Shown in pieces: positions 3,310 through 42,734 of a stretch of 64,000 nt of DNA. This stretch comes from Holophagae bacterium (GTDB taxonomy: Bacteria; Acidobacteriota; Thermoanaerobaculia; Thermoanaerobaculales; Thermoanaerobaculaceae): positions 1 through 64,000 of the forward strand of contig JAAYVZ010000287.1 of NCBI GenBank assembly GCA_012516935.1, written 5' to 3'. A program made the translations under genes and the position numbers. Under the pieces are notes generated by a model. It had not been told where the DNA came from, ran no database searches, and saw only the letters and a list, made by a program, of their open reading frames with translations. Positions within the stretch are counted from its first letter, which is position 1. Every line of letters begins with the position of its first letter.

Positions 3310-4211
3310 GCGCCTCGATCGTGGGTGTGCTCGCCGGCCTGATCCTGGCCCCGCTGCTCGGGGGGATCATCAACCGCGTCAAGGCGTTGTTCGCCGGCCG
3401 CAGCGGTCAACCGCTCCTGCAACCGTATCGCGATATCGCCAAGCTGCTGCGTAAGGGTGCGGTTTTTTCGACCACGACTGGCGAGATGTTCGGGGTCGGG
3501 CCGGCTATCGGCGTGGCCGCAGGGGTCGTTGGCCTCACGCTGCTGCCGCTGGGCGGGAGCCGGGCACCGGTGGCGTTCTCGGGCGACTTCCTGTTGCTTC
3601 TCGGCCTGCTGGCGCTGGCGCGTTTCTGCATCGTGTTGGCGGCACTCGATACCGGGTCGGCGTTCGAGGGCATGGGGGCGAGCCGCGAGGTCGCCTTCTC
3701 CGCCCTCGCCGAGCCAGCGATGCTGCTGGCGGTGGGAGCGCTCGTGCGGGCCACCGACGCGCAGTCGCTTTCGGCCGCCGTCGGTGCGGTATGGAAACAG
3801 GTGTGGCAGCCGTCGATGCCGGCGGCGGTGCTGGTGGCGGCAGCGCTGGCGGTGGTGCTGCTGTGCGAGAACGCTCGCATCCCGTTCGACGACCCCAACA
3901 CCCACCTCGAGCTGACGATGATCCACGAGGTGATGGTCCTCGACCATTCGGGCCCGGACTTCGGGCTCGTCCTCTACGGTGGAGCGCTCAAGCTGTGGAT
4001 CTTCTCGGCCCTGCTCGCCGGCGTGCTGGTGCCGGTGCGGTGTGGCTCACCGTGGCTCGATGCCGTTGCCACGGTGATCGGTACGTTCTGCGTTGCGGCG
4101 GGGGGGGGGGCGGTCGAGTCGACGATGGCCCGGCTGCGCCTCGTGCGGGTTCCGCAACTGCTGGTGGGGGCCGCGGTCATGGCGGCCCTGGCGGTGCTGC
4201 TGGTGAGGTGA
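3303..4211 (+). CDS. hyfC: HyfC/NuoH-like membrane subunit
   Basis: A 302-residue membrane protein of the NuoH/HycD/HyfC family, which anchors the hydrophilic arm to the ion-pumping arm. The N-terminal KALFAGRSGQPLLQPYRDIAKLLRKG and the loop CENARIPFDDPNTHLELTMI are diagnostic. ATG 3303 overlaps the hyfB stop (3307-3309) and is preceded by a G-run that can pair with 16S rRNA; GTG 3306 is the alternative. The coding sequence contains an 11-G homopolymer at 4100-4110, but the downstream frame (ESTMARLRLVRVPQLL) matches the family, so the assembled length is in frame. Confidence 0.92.
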   Translation: MVSASIVGVLAGLILAPLLGGIINRVKALFAGRSGQPLLQPYRDIAKLLRKGAVFSTTTGEMFGVGPAIGVAAGVVGLTLLPLGGSRAPVAFSGDFLLLLGLLALARFCIVLAALDTGSAFEGMGASREVAFSALAEPAMLLAVGALVRATDAQSLSAAVGAVWKQVWQPSMPAAVLVAAALAVVLLCENARIPFDDPNTHLELTMIHEVMVLDHSGPDFGLVLYGGALKLWIFSALLAGVLVPVRCGSPWLDAVATVIGTFCVAAGGGAVESTMARLRLVRVPQLLVGAAVMAALAVLLVR

Positions 4212-4858
4212 GCGTGGGCTGGGAGATCGACCCGATCTTGGTGACGCTGGTGCTCGTCAACCTCTTGCTGCTGGGGGGCAGCCGGCTGGTCACCTGCATC
4301 CGTCTGGTGGCGGTGCAGGGTGTGCTGCTGGGCATACTGGCGCTGCTGGTCCAGGTCGGGTGGTCGCCGACACGCGCGGTGCTGCTCGCCGGAGGGAGCG
4401 TGCTGCTCAAGGGCGTGGTGTTCCCACGCCTGCTATCGAGAGCGTTGCGGGGCGCCGAGATCCGCCGCGAGATGGAGCCCTACGTTGGCTACACGCCATC
4501 GGTGCTGCTCGGGCTTGCCATGCTGGCGCTCACGGTGTGGGTATCGTCACGCCTCACCCTGCCACTACCGGCCGCGTCGCATCTGCTGGTGCCGGTGGCG
4601 CTGTTCACGACCCTCACGGGGCTGTTTCTCATCGTCGCGCGGCGTAAGGCAATCACCCAGGTCTTGGGGTATCTCGTGCTCGAGAACGGCATCGTGACGT
4701 TCGGTATCGCCCTCTCGCACGAGGCCCCGTTGTCGGTCGAGCTGGGGGTGCTGCTCGACGTCTTCGTGGCCATCCTGGTGATGGGGATCATCGTCCACAA
4801 CATCCGCGAGGACTTCGACCACATCGACACCGACCGGCTGGCGAGCTTGAAGGACTGA
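4208..4858 (+). CDS. hyfE: HyfE-like membrane subunit
   Basis: A 216-residue protein with about six to seven hydrophobic helices, matching HyfE in length. The family relates to NuoK/MrpC with extra helices. The segment EMEPYVGYTPSVL and the C-terminal NIREDFDHIDTDRLASLKD agree with HyfE. The start GTG 4208 overlaps the hyfC stop (GTGA), with GTG 4214 as alternative. It lies between hyfC and hyfF in the usual hyf order. Confidence 0.9.
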   Translation: MSVGWEIDPILVTLVLVNLLLLGGSRLVTCIRLVAVQGVLLGILALLVQVGWSPTRAVLLAGGSVLLKGVVFPRLLSRALRGAEIRREMEPYVGYTPSVLLGLAMLALTVWVSSRLTLPLPAASHLLVPVALFTTLTGLFLIVARRKAITQVLGYLVLENGIVTFGIALSHEAPLSVELGVLLDVFVAILVMGIIVHNIREDFDHIDTDRLASLKD

Positions 4859-29566: not shown

Positions 29567-29656
<90 letters not shown>

Positions 29657-29905: not shown

Positions 29906-29995
<90 letters not shown>

Positions 29996-39172: not shown

Positions 39173-39247
39173 TGGCTCCGCAGGAGGGACTCGAACCCCC
39201 AACCCTTCGGTTAACAGCCGAATGCTCTACCATTGAGCTACTGCGGA
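39173..39247 (-). tRNA. tRNA-Asn (GTT anticodon)
   Basis: The acceptor stem TCCGCAG pairs with CTGCGGA, the D arm is GCTCAATGGTAGAGC, and the anticodon stem TTCGG/CCGAA closes CTGTTAA, giving GTT. GGTTCGAGTCC is the T loop. CCA is encoded (39175-39173). It is divergent from gatE. Confidence 0.96.
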
Positions 39248-39337: not shown

Positions 39338-39378
39338 CCGCCCGCTTCCGCCTCGGTGCGGAGGCTGGAGGCCCCTGC

Positions 39379-41343
39379 ATGGAGCCACGTCTTGATTACG
39401 CCGAGGCCGGGCTCATCGTCGGCCTCGAGGTACACCAGCAACTGCTCACCGCCCACAAGATGTTCTGCCGTTGCCCGGCGCGGCGCTACACCACGACCCA
39501 CGACGGCGAGGTGCTGCGCCATATGCGGCCGACCCTCTCCGAGCTCGGCGAGTACGACGGCACCGCGCTCATGGAGTTCAAGACCAAGAAGAACATCATC
39601 TACCTGCTCAACGAGTCGAACGTCTGCACCTACGAGATGGATGACACGCCGCCGTTTCTCGTCAACCAAGAGGCGGTCGACATCGCCATCGAGCAGTGCC
39701 TGATGCTGGGGTGCGACATCGTCGACGAGGTCCATATCGCCCGCAAGCAGTACCTCGACGGCTCGATCCCCACCGGCTTCCAGCGCACGGCCATCGTCGG
39801 GGTCAACGGCCGCCTACCATTCGCTGGCCGCACCCTGTCGATCATCCAAGTGAGCGTGGAGGAGGACTCGTGTCGCGAAGTCTCGGATGAGGGCCACCTC
39901 ATCGTCTGGCGTACCGATCGGTTGGGGATGCCGCTCATCGAGACCGTCACCGGTCCCGACCTGCACACCCCCGACGAGGTAGCCGCAGCGATCCTCCTGA
40001 TCGGTCGCGTTTGCCGCTCCACCGGCCACGTGCGGGTCGGAATCGGCGCCAGCCGTCAAGACGTCAACGTGTCGGTGCGCGGTGGGCACCGGGTCGAGAT
40101 CAAGGGAGTACCCAAGGCGGGGTGGGCGCCTGGTCTCGTTCACGGCGAGGCGTGGCGGCAGCTCAACCTCCTCAAGCTGCGCGCGGAGCTCCACCGCCGG
40201 GGGTTCACCGAGCCCGGGTCGATCGCCGTGAGCCACACCGACGTGACCGATCTCTTCGTCGCCTCGGAGCAGCCGTTCGTACGCCGGGAAGGCTGGGAGC
40301 GTTTTGTGGCCGAAGGCAAGCGACGCCCGGGCTTGGAGCTGGGGAACGGGCCGTTTAGGGTGTGGGCGGCGCGGCTGCACCGGCTGGCAGGAACGCTCTC
40401 GTGGCCGACCCAGCCCGACCATTTTTTCGCCTCCGAGCTGGCCGGACGCATCCGAGTCATCGCCGGGCTCGATCAACGGCCGATCCTCCTCCACTCCGAG
40501 AAGTGGCCGGACCACCGCGGCGCCCTCGCCGAGCTGCGCAAGGTCCGACAACGCCTGGGGTGCGAGGCCGACGACGCGGTCGTGGTCGTGTGGGGGCCCG
40601 AAGACGACGTCAACACCGCCGTCAACGAGGTGCAGCTCCGCTACGAGGACGCGGTCAGGGGCGTTCCGGCCGAGACCCGGCAGCCGTTTCCCGATGGCTC
40701 CACTGACTTCGAGCGCATCCTGCCCGGCCCTGACCGCATGTACCCGGACACCGACTCCCCGCCGACCCGCGTGACGCGCGACCGCGTCGAGCGCTTGCTG
40801 GCTGGCCTCGCCGAGCCGCCGTGGGTGCGCGAGGCGCGCTACGCCGCCGCCGGTGTCCCTGGTGCTGTCAGCCACTACTTGATTCGGCGGGGTGGCGCGA
40901 ATCTCGTCGATCGTCTGGTGGCCGAGACCGGGGCCGACCTGCGCTTCACGTGCTTTTTCGTCGGCGAGAAGCTCAAGTACCTGCGCCGCTGCTCGGTGGC
41001 GGTGGAGACGATCAGCTACGAGCACTGGCGCGAGCTGTTTCAGCTCTTTACGACCAACCCCGTGCTGGCCGAGGCGTGGGCGCAGATCGTCAGGCTCATG
41101 GCGGCCTCACCACTGGCTTCCGTGGCCTCACTGCTCGCCGAGGAAGGCCTCGGGGCCGCACCGCCGGCCTGGACCGAGCGGATCGAGCCGCTCGTCGAGG
41201 CGCTGGGTGCCGGTGGCTACTCCACCGAGCACGGAGCCAAGGTACGCCTGGCTATGGGGGGGCTCATGGCCGAGCTGCGGGGGCGCGTTCCAGCGGGCGA
41301 GGTGCGAGCCGCCATCGAGGCGGCGCTGGGAGGTGCTCGATGA
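39379..41343 (+). CDS. gatE: Archaeal-type Glu-tRNA(Gln) amidotransferase subunit E
   Basis: A 654-residue protein. IVGLEVHQQLLTAHKMFCRCP (N-terminal), LNESNVCTYEMDDTPP, ARKQYLDGSIPTGFQRTAI and GASRQDVNVSVRGG match GatE more than bacterial GatB, in motif wording and length. A GAD insert appears near residues 440-520 (PGPDRMYPDTDSPP), and a helical YqeY-like tail ends the protein. GatE binds Glu-tRNA(Gln), phosphorylates the glutamyl group and transfers ammonia. ATG 39379 has GGAGG upstream. It overlaps gatD by four bases. GatDE is described as archaeal, so this pair is unusual in a bacterium. Confidence 0.92.
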   Translation: MEPRLDYAEAGLIVGLEVHQQLLTAHKMFCRCPARRYTTTHDGEVLRHMRPTLSELGEYDGTALMEFKTKKNIIYLLNESNVCTYEMDDTPPFLVNQEAVDIAIEQCLMLGCDIVDEVHIARKQYLDGSIPTGFQRTAIVGVNGRLPFAGRTLSIIQVSVEEDSCREVSDEGHLIVWRTDRLGMPLIETVTGPDLHTPDEVAAAILLIGRVCRSTGHVRVGIGASRQDVNVSVRGGHRVEIKGVPKAGWAPGLVHGEAWRQLNLLKLRAELHRRGFTEPGSIAVSHTDVTDLFVASEQPFVRREGWERFVAEGKRRPGLELGNGPFRVWAARLHRLAGTLSWPTQPDHFFASELAGRIRVIAGLDQRPILLHSEKWPDHRGALAELRKVRQRLGCEADDAVVVVWGPEDDVNTAVNEVQLRYEDAVRGVPAETRQPFPDGSTDFERILPGPDRMYPDTDSPPTRVTRDRVERLLAGLAEPPWVREARYAAAGVPGAVSHYLIRRGGANLVDRLVAETGADLRFTCFFVGEKLKYLRRCSVAVETISYEHWRELFQLFTTNPVLAEAWAQIVRLMAASPLASVASLLAEEGLGAAPPAWTERIEPLVEALGAGGYSTEHGAKVRLAMGGLMAELRGRVPAGEVRAAIEAALGGAR

Positions 41344-42734
41344 GCGCCACCGGCGACGAACTCAAGGGGTACAGAGGCCGGGCTCGTGCGCGGCTGGCGG
41401 AGCTCGGAGTGCGCGTATGGAGCCGGGTCAAGCTCACGAACGACGCCGGCTCGGTTTTCGAGGGGGTGATCTTGCCGCGCTCGGAGACCTTCGACGACCT
41501 CCACATCGTCATCAAGATGGTCAACGGCTACAACGTCGGGGTTCATGTCGACCGCGTCACCGAGGTGGAGGAGCTGGGGTGGAAGGAAGCGGTCTACAAG
41601 ATCCCCGAGAAGGAGTTCCCGGTCCGACCGAACCTGCCGAAGGTCACGCTCCTGGGGACCGGCGGGACCATCGCCTCGCGTCTGGACTACCGCACCGGTG
41701 CGGTGATCCCGGCGTTCACTCCCGGTGAGCTGTACGGTGCGGTGCCGGAGCTCGCCGACATCTGCAACCTCACGACCCGCAAGCTGTTCGGTGTGTTCTC
41801 GGAGAACATGGCCCGGGACAACTACATCGCCCTCGCGCTGGCGATCGGCGAGGAGATCGCCGCCGGCGTGGACGGCATCGTCATCGGCCACGGCACCGAC
41901 ACCATGGGGCACACCGCCGCCGTCCTTTCATTCATGGTCCAGGACTCACCGGTGCCGATCGTGCTCGTGGGTTCGCAACGCTCCTCCGACCGGCCCTCGT
42001 CCGACGCCGCGCTCAACCTCATCCACGCCGTACGCACCGCGGCCTACGGCGACATCGCCGAGGTCATGATCGCCATGTTCGGCCCGACTTCGGACCGCTA
42101 CGGGCTACTGCACCGCGGCACCCGCTGCCGCAAGATGCACTCCTCGTACCGCTCCACCTTCCGCACCGTCGGCGACATCCCACTCGCCACCGTCAGCCGC
42201 GACAGCTTCACGTACCTGTCGAAGGACTACCGCCGACGCGACAAGTCCCGCCAGGTGAGGGTTGACCCCGTTTACGACGAGCGCACGACGATCCTGTACT
42301 ACTACCCCGGGATGCACCCCGACCTGGTCGACGCACTGGTCGAGAAGGGCTACCACGGCATCGTTATCGCCGGCACCGGCCTCGGCCACGTCAACAAGCC
42401 GCTCTACCCGGCGCTCAAGCGCGCCATCGAGCAGGGTGTCCACGTCGTGATGGCGGTGCAGACGCTGTGGGGCTACGCCCAAATGTACGTCTACGACACC
42501 GGGCGAGACCTCCTGGACATCGGCATCGTGCCACTCGACAACATGCTGCCGGAGACGGCGCTCATGAAGCTCTCTTGGGTGTTGGCCCACACCCGCGACC
42601 ACGCCGAGGTGGCACGCATGATGACCACCCCGATCGCCCACGAGATCACCCCGCGCGAGCCTCACAACGGCTACCTCATCATGCAAGGCGGACTGCCCGA
42701 GATCGAGGAGTGGATCAAGACCCACTGGAAGTGA
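41340..42734 (+). CDS. gatD: Archaeal-type Glu-tRNA(Gln) amidotransferase subunit D
   Basis: A 464-residue protein with an N-terminal small beta domain (about 1-95, GVILPRSETFDDLHIVIKM) and an asparaginase-type domain. GTGGTIAS (about 106-113) and GHGTDTM (T186, D187) carry the catalytic threonines and aspartate. GTGLGHVN and QTLWGYAQMYVYDTGR are GatD-type C-terminal motifs. GatD releases ammonia from glutamine or asparagine and passes it to GatE. ATG 41340 overlaps the gatE stop. The extra N-terminal domain separates it from plain asparaginase. Confidence 0.93.
   Translation: MSATGDELKGYRGRARARLAELGVRVWSRVKLTNDAGSVFEGVILPRSETFDDLHIVIKMVNGYNVGVHVDRVTEVEELGWKEAVYKIPEKEFPVRPNLPKVTLLGTGGTIASRLDYRTGAVIPAFTPGELYGAVPELADICNLTTRKLFGVFSENMARDNYIALALAIGEEIAAGVDGIVIGHGTDTMGHTAAVLSFMVQDSPVPIVLVGSQRSSDRPSSDAALNLIHAVRTAAYGDIAEVMIAMFGPTSDRYGLLHRGTRCRKMHSSYRSTFRTVGDIPLATVSRDSFTYLSKDYRRRDKSRQVRVDPVYDERTTILYYYPGMHPDLVDALVEKGYHGIVIAGTGLGHVNKPLYPALKRAIEQGVHVVMAVQTLWGYAQMYVYDTGRDLLDIGIVPLDNMLPETALMKLSWVLAHTRDHAEVARMMTTPIAHEITPREPHNGYLIMQGGLPEIEEWIKTHWK

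Follow-up and report, generated by a model that had tools for sequence, protein, structure and literature searches.

The window, a 64,000-nucleotide stretch of DNA from a bacterium of the phylum Acidobacteriota, carries a gatE-gatD gene pair that, judging from its sequence, encodes an intact two-subunit GatDE, neither a GatB nor a plain asparaginase. Its subunits, family, clade, co-occurrence with GlnRS and purifying selection can be read from the sequences. The pair belongs to a second clade of GatDE, here called type II, and we propose that type II GatDE acts as a Glu-tRNAGln amidotransferase beside GlnRS, where it would provide a second or corrective route, probably mainly for the CUG isoacceptor; the probability of this reading is about 0.5. 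The presence of GlnRS in the same cell makes such a role the most likely one.

The gatE-gatD pair and the two clades of GatDE

The gatE gene is a complete ORF of 654 aa at positions 39379..41343 of the forward strand (ATG at 39379, stop codon at 41341-41343) and encodes the kinase/transamidase subunit. The complete gatD ORF of 464 aa occupies positions 41340..42734 of the same strand (ATG at 41340, stop codon ending at 42734), and the two genes overlap by four bases, ATGA. Both are preceded by probable GGAGG-like ribosome binding sites on the forward strand, namely TGGAGGC at 39366..39372 for gatE (sequence CTGGAGGCCCCTGCATGG) and GGGAGGT at 41327..41333, within gatE, for gatD (sequence CTGGGAGGTGCTCGATGAGC). 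The two complete, overlapping subunits and the GatD and GatE motifs reported in the first-pass annotation are real.

GatE passed the cut-offs of two NCBIfam equivalogs, NF003107 (462.7 bits, cut-off 456) and TIGR00134 (388 bits, cut-off 319.6), and GatD those of NF003217 (498 bits, cut-off 310) and TIGR02153 (494 bits, cut-off 324). Pfam searches revealed GatB_N in GatE, and GatD_N with both asparaginase domains in GatD. The solved structures closest by sequence are the archaeal GatDE of Pyrococcus abyssi (1zq1) and Methanothermobacter (2d6f), and GatE modelled with AlphaFold, at a mean pLDDT of 83.7, had 1zq1_C as its first structural match (E 1e-44, TMt 0.80). After GatE and GatB, the model weakly matched bacterial AspRS, a carrier of the GAD domain. 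Pfam GAD had no match in the window GatE even at E 10 and was found at the same place in related proteins (in L083 with 25.4 bits against a cut-off of 23.4), so that a GAD insert in the window protein, which would have diverged beyond recognition by Pfam, is only indirectly supported. GatE retains E17, H19, K123, E161, E162, D163, R181, E188, R226, N230, E240, K242, R260 and Q261, which are common to GatB and both types of GatE (present at ≥90% in GatB, archaeal GatE and bacterial GatE). In GatD, the asparaginase-type site is retained with T110, T186-D187 and K265, residues that hardly vary among 113 GatD sequences.

Like archaeal GatDE, the window enzyme has two subunits with the same catalytic residues, fold and equivalog families: a GatE with the catalytic GatB_N domain, a putative insert at the GAD position and a YqeY-like tail, and a GatD composed of GatD_N and asparaginase domains. 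It differs in its place in a sister clade, in its own type-specific invariant residues, and in having a bacterial host with GlnRS beside it; the first pair of the host tRNAGln is U1-A72, whereas A1-U72 is described as read by archaeal GatDE. With GatB of the GatCAB complex, GatE shares the GatB_N and YqeY-like domains, the universal catalytic residues, Y125 and P131, but the host lacks GatB and a GatA/GatC partner, and GatD rather than GatA would be the ammonia source. GatD resembles type I asparaginases in its catalytic T-T-D-K core, from which it is distinguished by GatD_N, by the gatE partner and by its score (498 bits for the GatD equivalog versus 359 bits).

Phylogenetic relationships of GatE were analyzed in a careful mixture-model tree and in a larger quick tree, both rooted on GatB and with Thermoplasmatota genomes added. 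GatE was separated from GatB with a support of 100 and did not fall inside bacterial GatB, which together with the equivalog scores upholds the assignment to GatDE. Clade I comprised P. abyssi, M. thermautotrophicus and most Thermoplasmatota, and clade II all bacteria and eight Thermoplasmatota (support 100/97 for the split); bacterial GatE formed one branch within type II (100/98). The GatD tree had the same split. The window GatE thus lies outside the P. abyssi/M. thermautotrophicus clade, and its host has GlnRS and tRNAGln with U1-A72 and G73. The earlier designation of the pair as archaeal-type holds insofar as it branches with archaeal GatE, but the clade is the sister of the textbook archaeal GatDE and is shared with only a few GlnRS-containing archaea. 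The simplest reading of the trees would be that bacteria received type II GatDE once, from an archaeal lineage that had it, and that it then spread; its direction is not proven, since archaeal sampling comprised one phylum and two structures.

Eighteen positions separate type I from type II GatE. D457 was found in all type II proteins, while all type I GatE and GatB have Glu there. Y125 and P131 are shared by type II GatE with GatB and not with type I, and D89, T90 and C165 are among the type-II-specific invariant residues. Positions 84-88 and 126-133 fall within loops that are uncertain in the AlphaFold model.

GlnRS in the host genome and the distribution of GatDE among bacteria

The window comes from contig 239 of an Acidobacteriota genome of 3.7 Mb and 98% completeness, the gene inventory of which was made by family searches. 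Two class-Ic synthetases were found: one is a full GlnRS, scoring 705 bits for glnS (cut-off 426), and the other is a GluRS of the bacterial kind. Also found were AspRS, LysRS, AsnRS, an asparagine synthetase B-type gene (AsnB) and two amidases. No GatB was detected in the genome by these searches; only GatE answered the GatB tail family and the GatE model. Genes for tRNAGln are located on contigs C288 (UUG) and C52 (CUG, beside glnS), and both isoacceptors have the features needed by bacterial GlnRS, namely U1-A72, G2-C71, G3-C70 and G73. In the region 19000-28500 of C52 (L153), glnS and gltX are less than 5 kb apart; tRNAGln(CUG) adjoins glnS, and a cluster of tRNA genes (Arg, His, Arg, Pro, Ser) adjoins gltX. 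The direct route to Gln-tRNA, as far as its genes tell, is complete in the host and GatDE is additional; given GlnRS, GatDE is not the only source of Gln-tRNA.

The host AspRS has a leucine as in E. coli and T. thermophilus at a position where P. aeruginosa AspRS has His; we take these residues to mark the discriminating and non-discriminating types, respectively. The host GluRS has Arg at the position of T. thermophilus Arg358, characteristic of the discriminating type, and so does GluRS in 21 of the 21 GatDE-containing bacteria examined, although this residue is not decisive for every bacterium (PMC3927822). The lack of GatB and the intactness of GatDE would fit a reading of the first-pass annotation in which GatDE supplies most or all of the Gln-tRNAGln of this cell, as a transferred replacement of GatCAB or GlnRS. 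This is very improbable in view of the full GlnRS, whose scores are canonical for the glnS family, the GlnRS determinants of both tRNAGln isoacceptors and the discriminating Arg358 of GluRS. What survives of the proposed transferred or ancient alternative route is an old archaeal transfer, which fits the tree; its role as an alternative to GlnRS or GatCAB is not supported, given the GlnRS gene. There is precedent for an amidotransferase beside GlnRS, because GatCAB coexists with GlnRS in some bacteria (PMC3927822, PMC4206432).

One scan of GTDB species genomes yielded at least 575 confirmed relatives, spread over many bacterial phyla, and therefore GatDE is not exceptional in bacteria. The 80 matches listed included Acidobacteriota, Ignavibacteriota, Bacteroidota, Planctomycetota, Myxococcota, Gemmatimonadota, Zixibacteria, KSB1, Aminicenantes and others, and the named nearest relatives were Acidobacteria. 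Apart from gatE and gatD themselves, no conserved neighbours were found among 80 loci. In the sample of the phylum Acidobacteriota, GatE exceeded the cut-off in 20 of 159 genomes, all 20 with GlnRS and 15 without a GatB-like match. GlnRS was found in 45 of the 49 named gatE-containing genomes (41 full, 4 partial); two others had GluRS without GlnRS, and the remaining two had neither, which points to incomplete assemblies.

Reviews describe GatDE as archaeal only, and on that ground the locus might be taken for archaeal contamination of a bacterial bin or for part of a chimeric contig. This possibility is negligible: independently assembled Acidobacteria MAGs carry GatE 76% identical to that of the window, relatives occur in L054 and L075, two bacterial records with the label 'chromosome' (Gemmatimonadota are among such records), and in the complete Ignavibacteria chromosome CP054675, and the type II GatE proteins of bacteria form a single clade. 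As noted at first pass, the rest of the window is bacterial: NupC and other ordinary genes flank the pair, and bacterial-type GluRS, AspRS and LysRS are encoded elsewhere in the genome. An archaeal or chimeric origin of the contig was thus rejected. The search of plasmids for GatE revealed only one piece of an archaeal megaplasmid, in addition to GatB.

A study of 366 genomes sorted the routes to Gln-tRNA by GluRS, GlnRS and gatCAB only (PMC3927822), and GatDE may have been overlooked in bacterial surveys. No description of the bacterial GatDE clade or of its pairing with GlnRS was found in the papers searched. The gatED genes are not new to databases, because existing models for automatic annotation assign the names GatD and GatE to proteins of this kind.

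GlnRS and type II GatDE in Thermoplasmatota

A true GlnRS was found in 11 of 41 Thermoplasmatota genomes (G196, G212, G213, G216, G221, G224, G225, G227, G234, G236 and G243; loci L322-L332), besides an archaeal GluRS, which was not seen in G234. Three of the 11 had no GatE above the family cut-off. These archaeal GlnRS formed one clade apart from bacterial GlnRS (support 99), and in 10 of the 11 genomes the gene had in its vicinity a tRNAGln(CTG) gene whose first pair is A1-U72, as in archaea; therefore, they are not bacterial contaminants. The close kin of the window genome's GlnRS were not resolved in the GlnRS tree. In tRNAGln(CTG) of the GlnRS-containing archaea, G73, a determinant of bacterial GlnRS, was observed in G196, G212, G213, G221 and G234, and A73 was kept in G216, G224, G225, G236 and G243.

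All eight Thermoplasmatota genomes with type II GatE had GlnRS, and none of the 30 GlnRS-less genomes had type II GatE (Fisher p 1.7e-6, the eight cases being not independent because all belong to one GlnRS clade). Two genomes, G227 and G236, had type I and type II GatDE together, along with GlnRS. The D-arm stretch of tRNAGln was 17 nt long in all 33 genes of the GlnRS-less genomes and 15-16 nt in 10 of the 13 genes of the type-II-only genomes; in G227 and G236, the D-arm was canonical in tRNAGln(UUG) and changed in tRNAGln(CUG). Since GatDE is described as reading the D-loop and the first pair of tRNAGln, these differences fit separate tRNA clients for types I and II.

According to reviews (PMC9499178), GatDE is now archaeal only, no archaeon has GlnRS, and it was the co-evolution of GatDE and tRNAGln that prevented archaea from gaining GlnRS. 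The first two statements are contradicted by the sequences analysed here, in which a second GatDE clade extends over many bacterial phyla and one archaeal clade with GlnRS; the third becomes less secure.

The possibility that GatDE is an acquired passenger, selected for a non-translational activity (e.g., as an asparaginase or glutaminase) or already on its way to loss, is suggested by its patchy occurrence in Acidobacteriota and by two sampled genomes of the host's order that have GlnRS without GatDE. We consider it rather improbable, since the bacterial clade has conserved both subunits as well as the kinase site of GatE, for which an asparaginase would have no use, and the pairing with GlnRS in archaea is strict. 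Moreover, comparison of L019 with L020 indicated purifying selection, with dN of 0.042 and dS of 0.338 for gatE and 0.035 and 0.473 for gatD (dN/dS about 0.1).

Proposed role and tRNA genes beside gatED

By analogy with known GatDE biochemistry, the window enzyme would convert Glu-tRNAGln to Gln-tRNAGln. GatD would release ammonia from glutamine or asparagine, GatE would use ATP to activate the side-chain carboxylate of Glu mis-attached to tRNAGln, and the activated Glu would then be amidated by GatE. As a corrector, GatDE would act on Glu-tRNAGln made by mistake, mainly that of the CUG isoacceptor, and convert it to Gln-tRNAGln; the preference for tRNAGln(CUG) and the back-up or correction role are suggested with less confidence than the reaction. 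Counting against this explanation, no enzyme stands out as the producer of Glu-tRNAGln, because GluRS is of the discriminating type by Arg358 throughout the set of bacteria examined. More tentatively, there may be two ancient kinds of GatDE, of which type II would be a dedicated companion of GlnRS in bacteria and archaea, with an altered active site, repairing or supplementing mainly tRNAGln(CUG). If so, bacterial translation would include an amidating fidelity step that has gone unrecognised, and GlnRS would be in use in some archaea. The question raised is why a converter of Glu to Gln on tRNA is kept beside GlnRS.

A tRNAGln(CUG) gene adjoins gatED in the bacterial loci L019 and L020 and in the archaea G196 (L065) and G224 (L198). 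Counted together with the amber tRNA gene described next, such neighbours occur in at least three unrelated lineages versus about 0.06 expected by chance. In Holophagaceae bog_363, a gene for a tRNA with the amber anticodon CUA (L048, positions 4188-4263, forward strand) lies 62 bp upstream of gatE; it is identical to tRNAGln(CUG) of the same genome at 61 of 72 bases (85%) and could decode UAG.

In the window, a tRNA-Asn(GUU) gene with U1-A72 and G73, identified by ARAGORN, is located at 39173..39247 on the reverse strand, 131 bp upstream of gatE and divergent from it. This gene, the amber tRNA of L048 and the type-II invariant residues near catalytic motifs (Y125, P131, D89, T90, C165 and D457) would agree with a shifted or widened substrate use, either GatCAB-like, with both Asp-tRNAAsn and Glu-tRNAGln, or directed to a special tRNA, which would account for the coexistence with GlnRS. 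We regard such a shift as unlikely. The tRNA-Asn gene is absent from this place in the nearest relatives (L009-L018), non-Gln tRNAs occur beside gatED at chance level, and the tRNAs found there in other genomes are mostly tRNAGln; the window tRNA-Asn is probably a neighbour and not part of the GatDE system. AsnRS, AsnB and an AspRS with the leucine of the discriminating type are also present, and Asp-tRNAAsn was set aside as the main substrate.

A Glu-like tRNAGln(CTG) was considered as a marker of GatDE. It was present in 13 of 13 genomes with GatDE and without GatB, and was rejected because the same kind is kept in 8 of 14 close relatives without any amidotransferase; this kind of tRNA therefore does not require GatDE. 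U1-A72 was present in bacterial tRNAGln of all matched genomes, the pair being required by the search pattern, and ARAGORN at relaxed settings gave mostly false tRNAs. Two tRNA-Ser genes (GGA and CGA) are near each other on the reverse strand of the window, at 29567-29656 and 29907-29995. In G003 and G043 (L230, L231), which have both GatDE and GatB, the tRNAGln genes are in tandem and both of the short-variable-loop kind; unlike these, the UUG tRNA of GatB-less genomes is E. coli-like.
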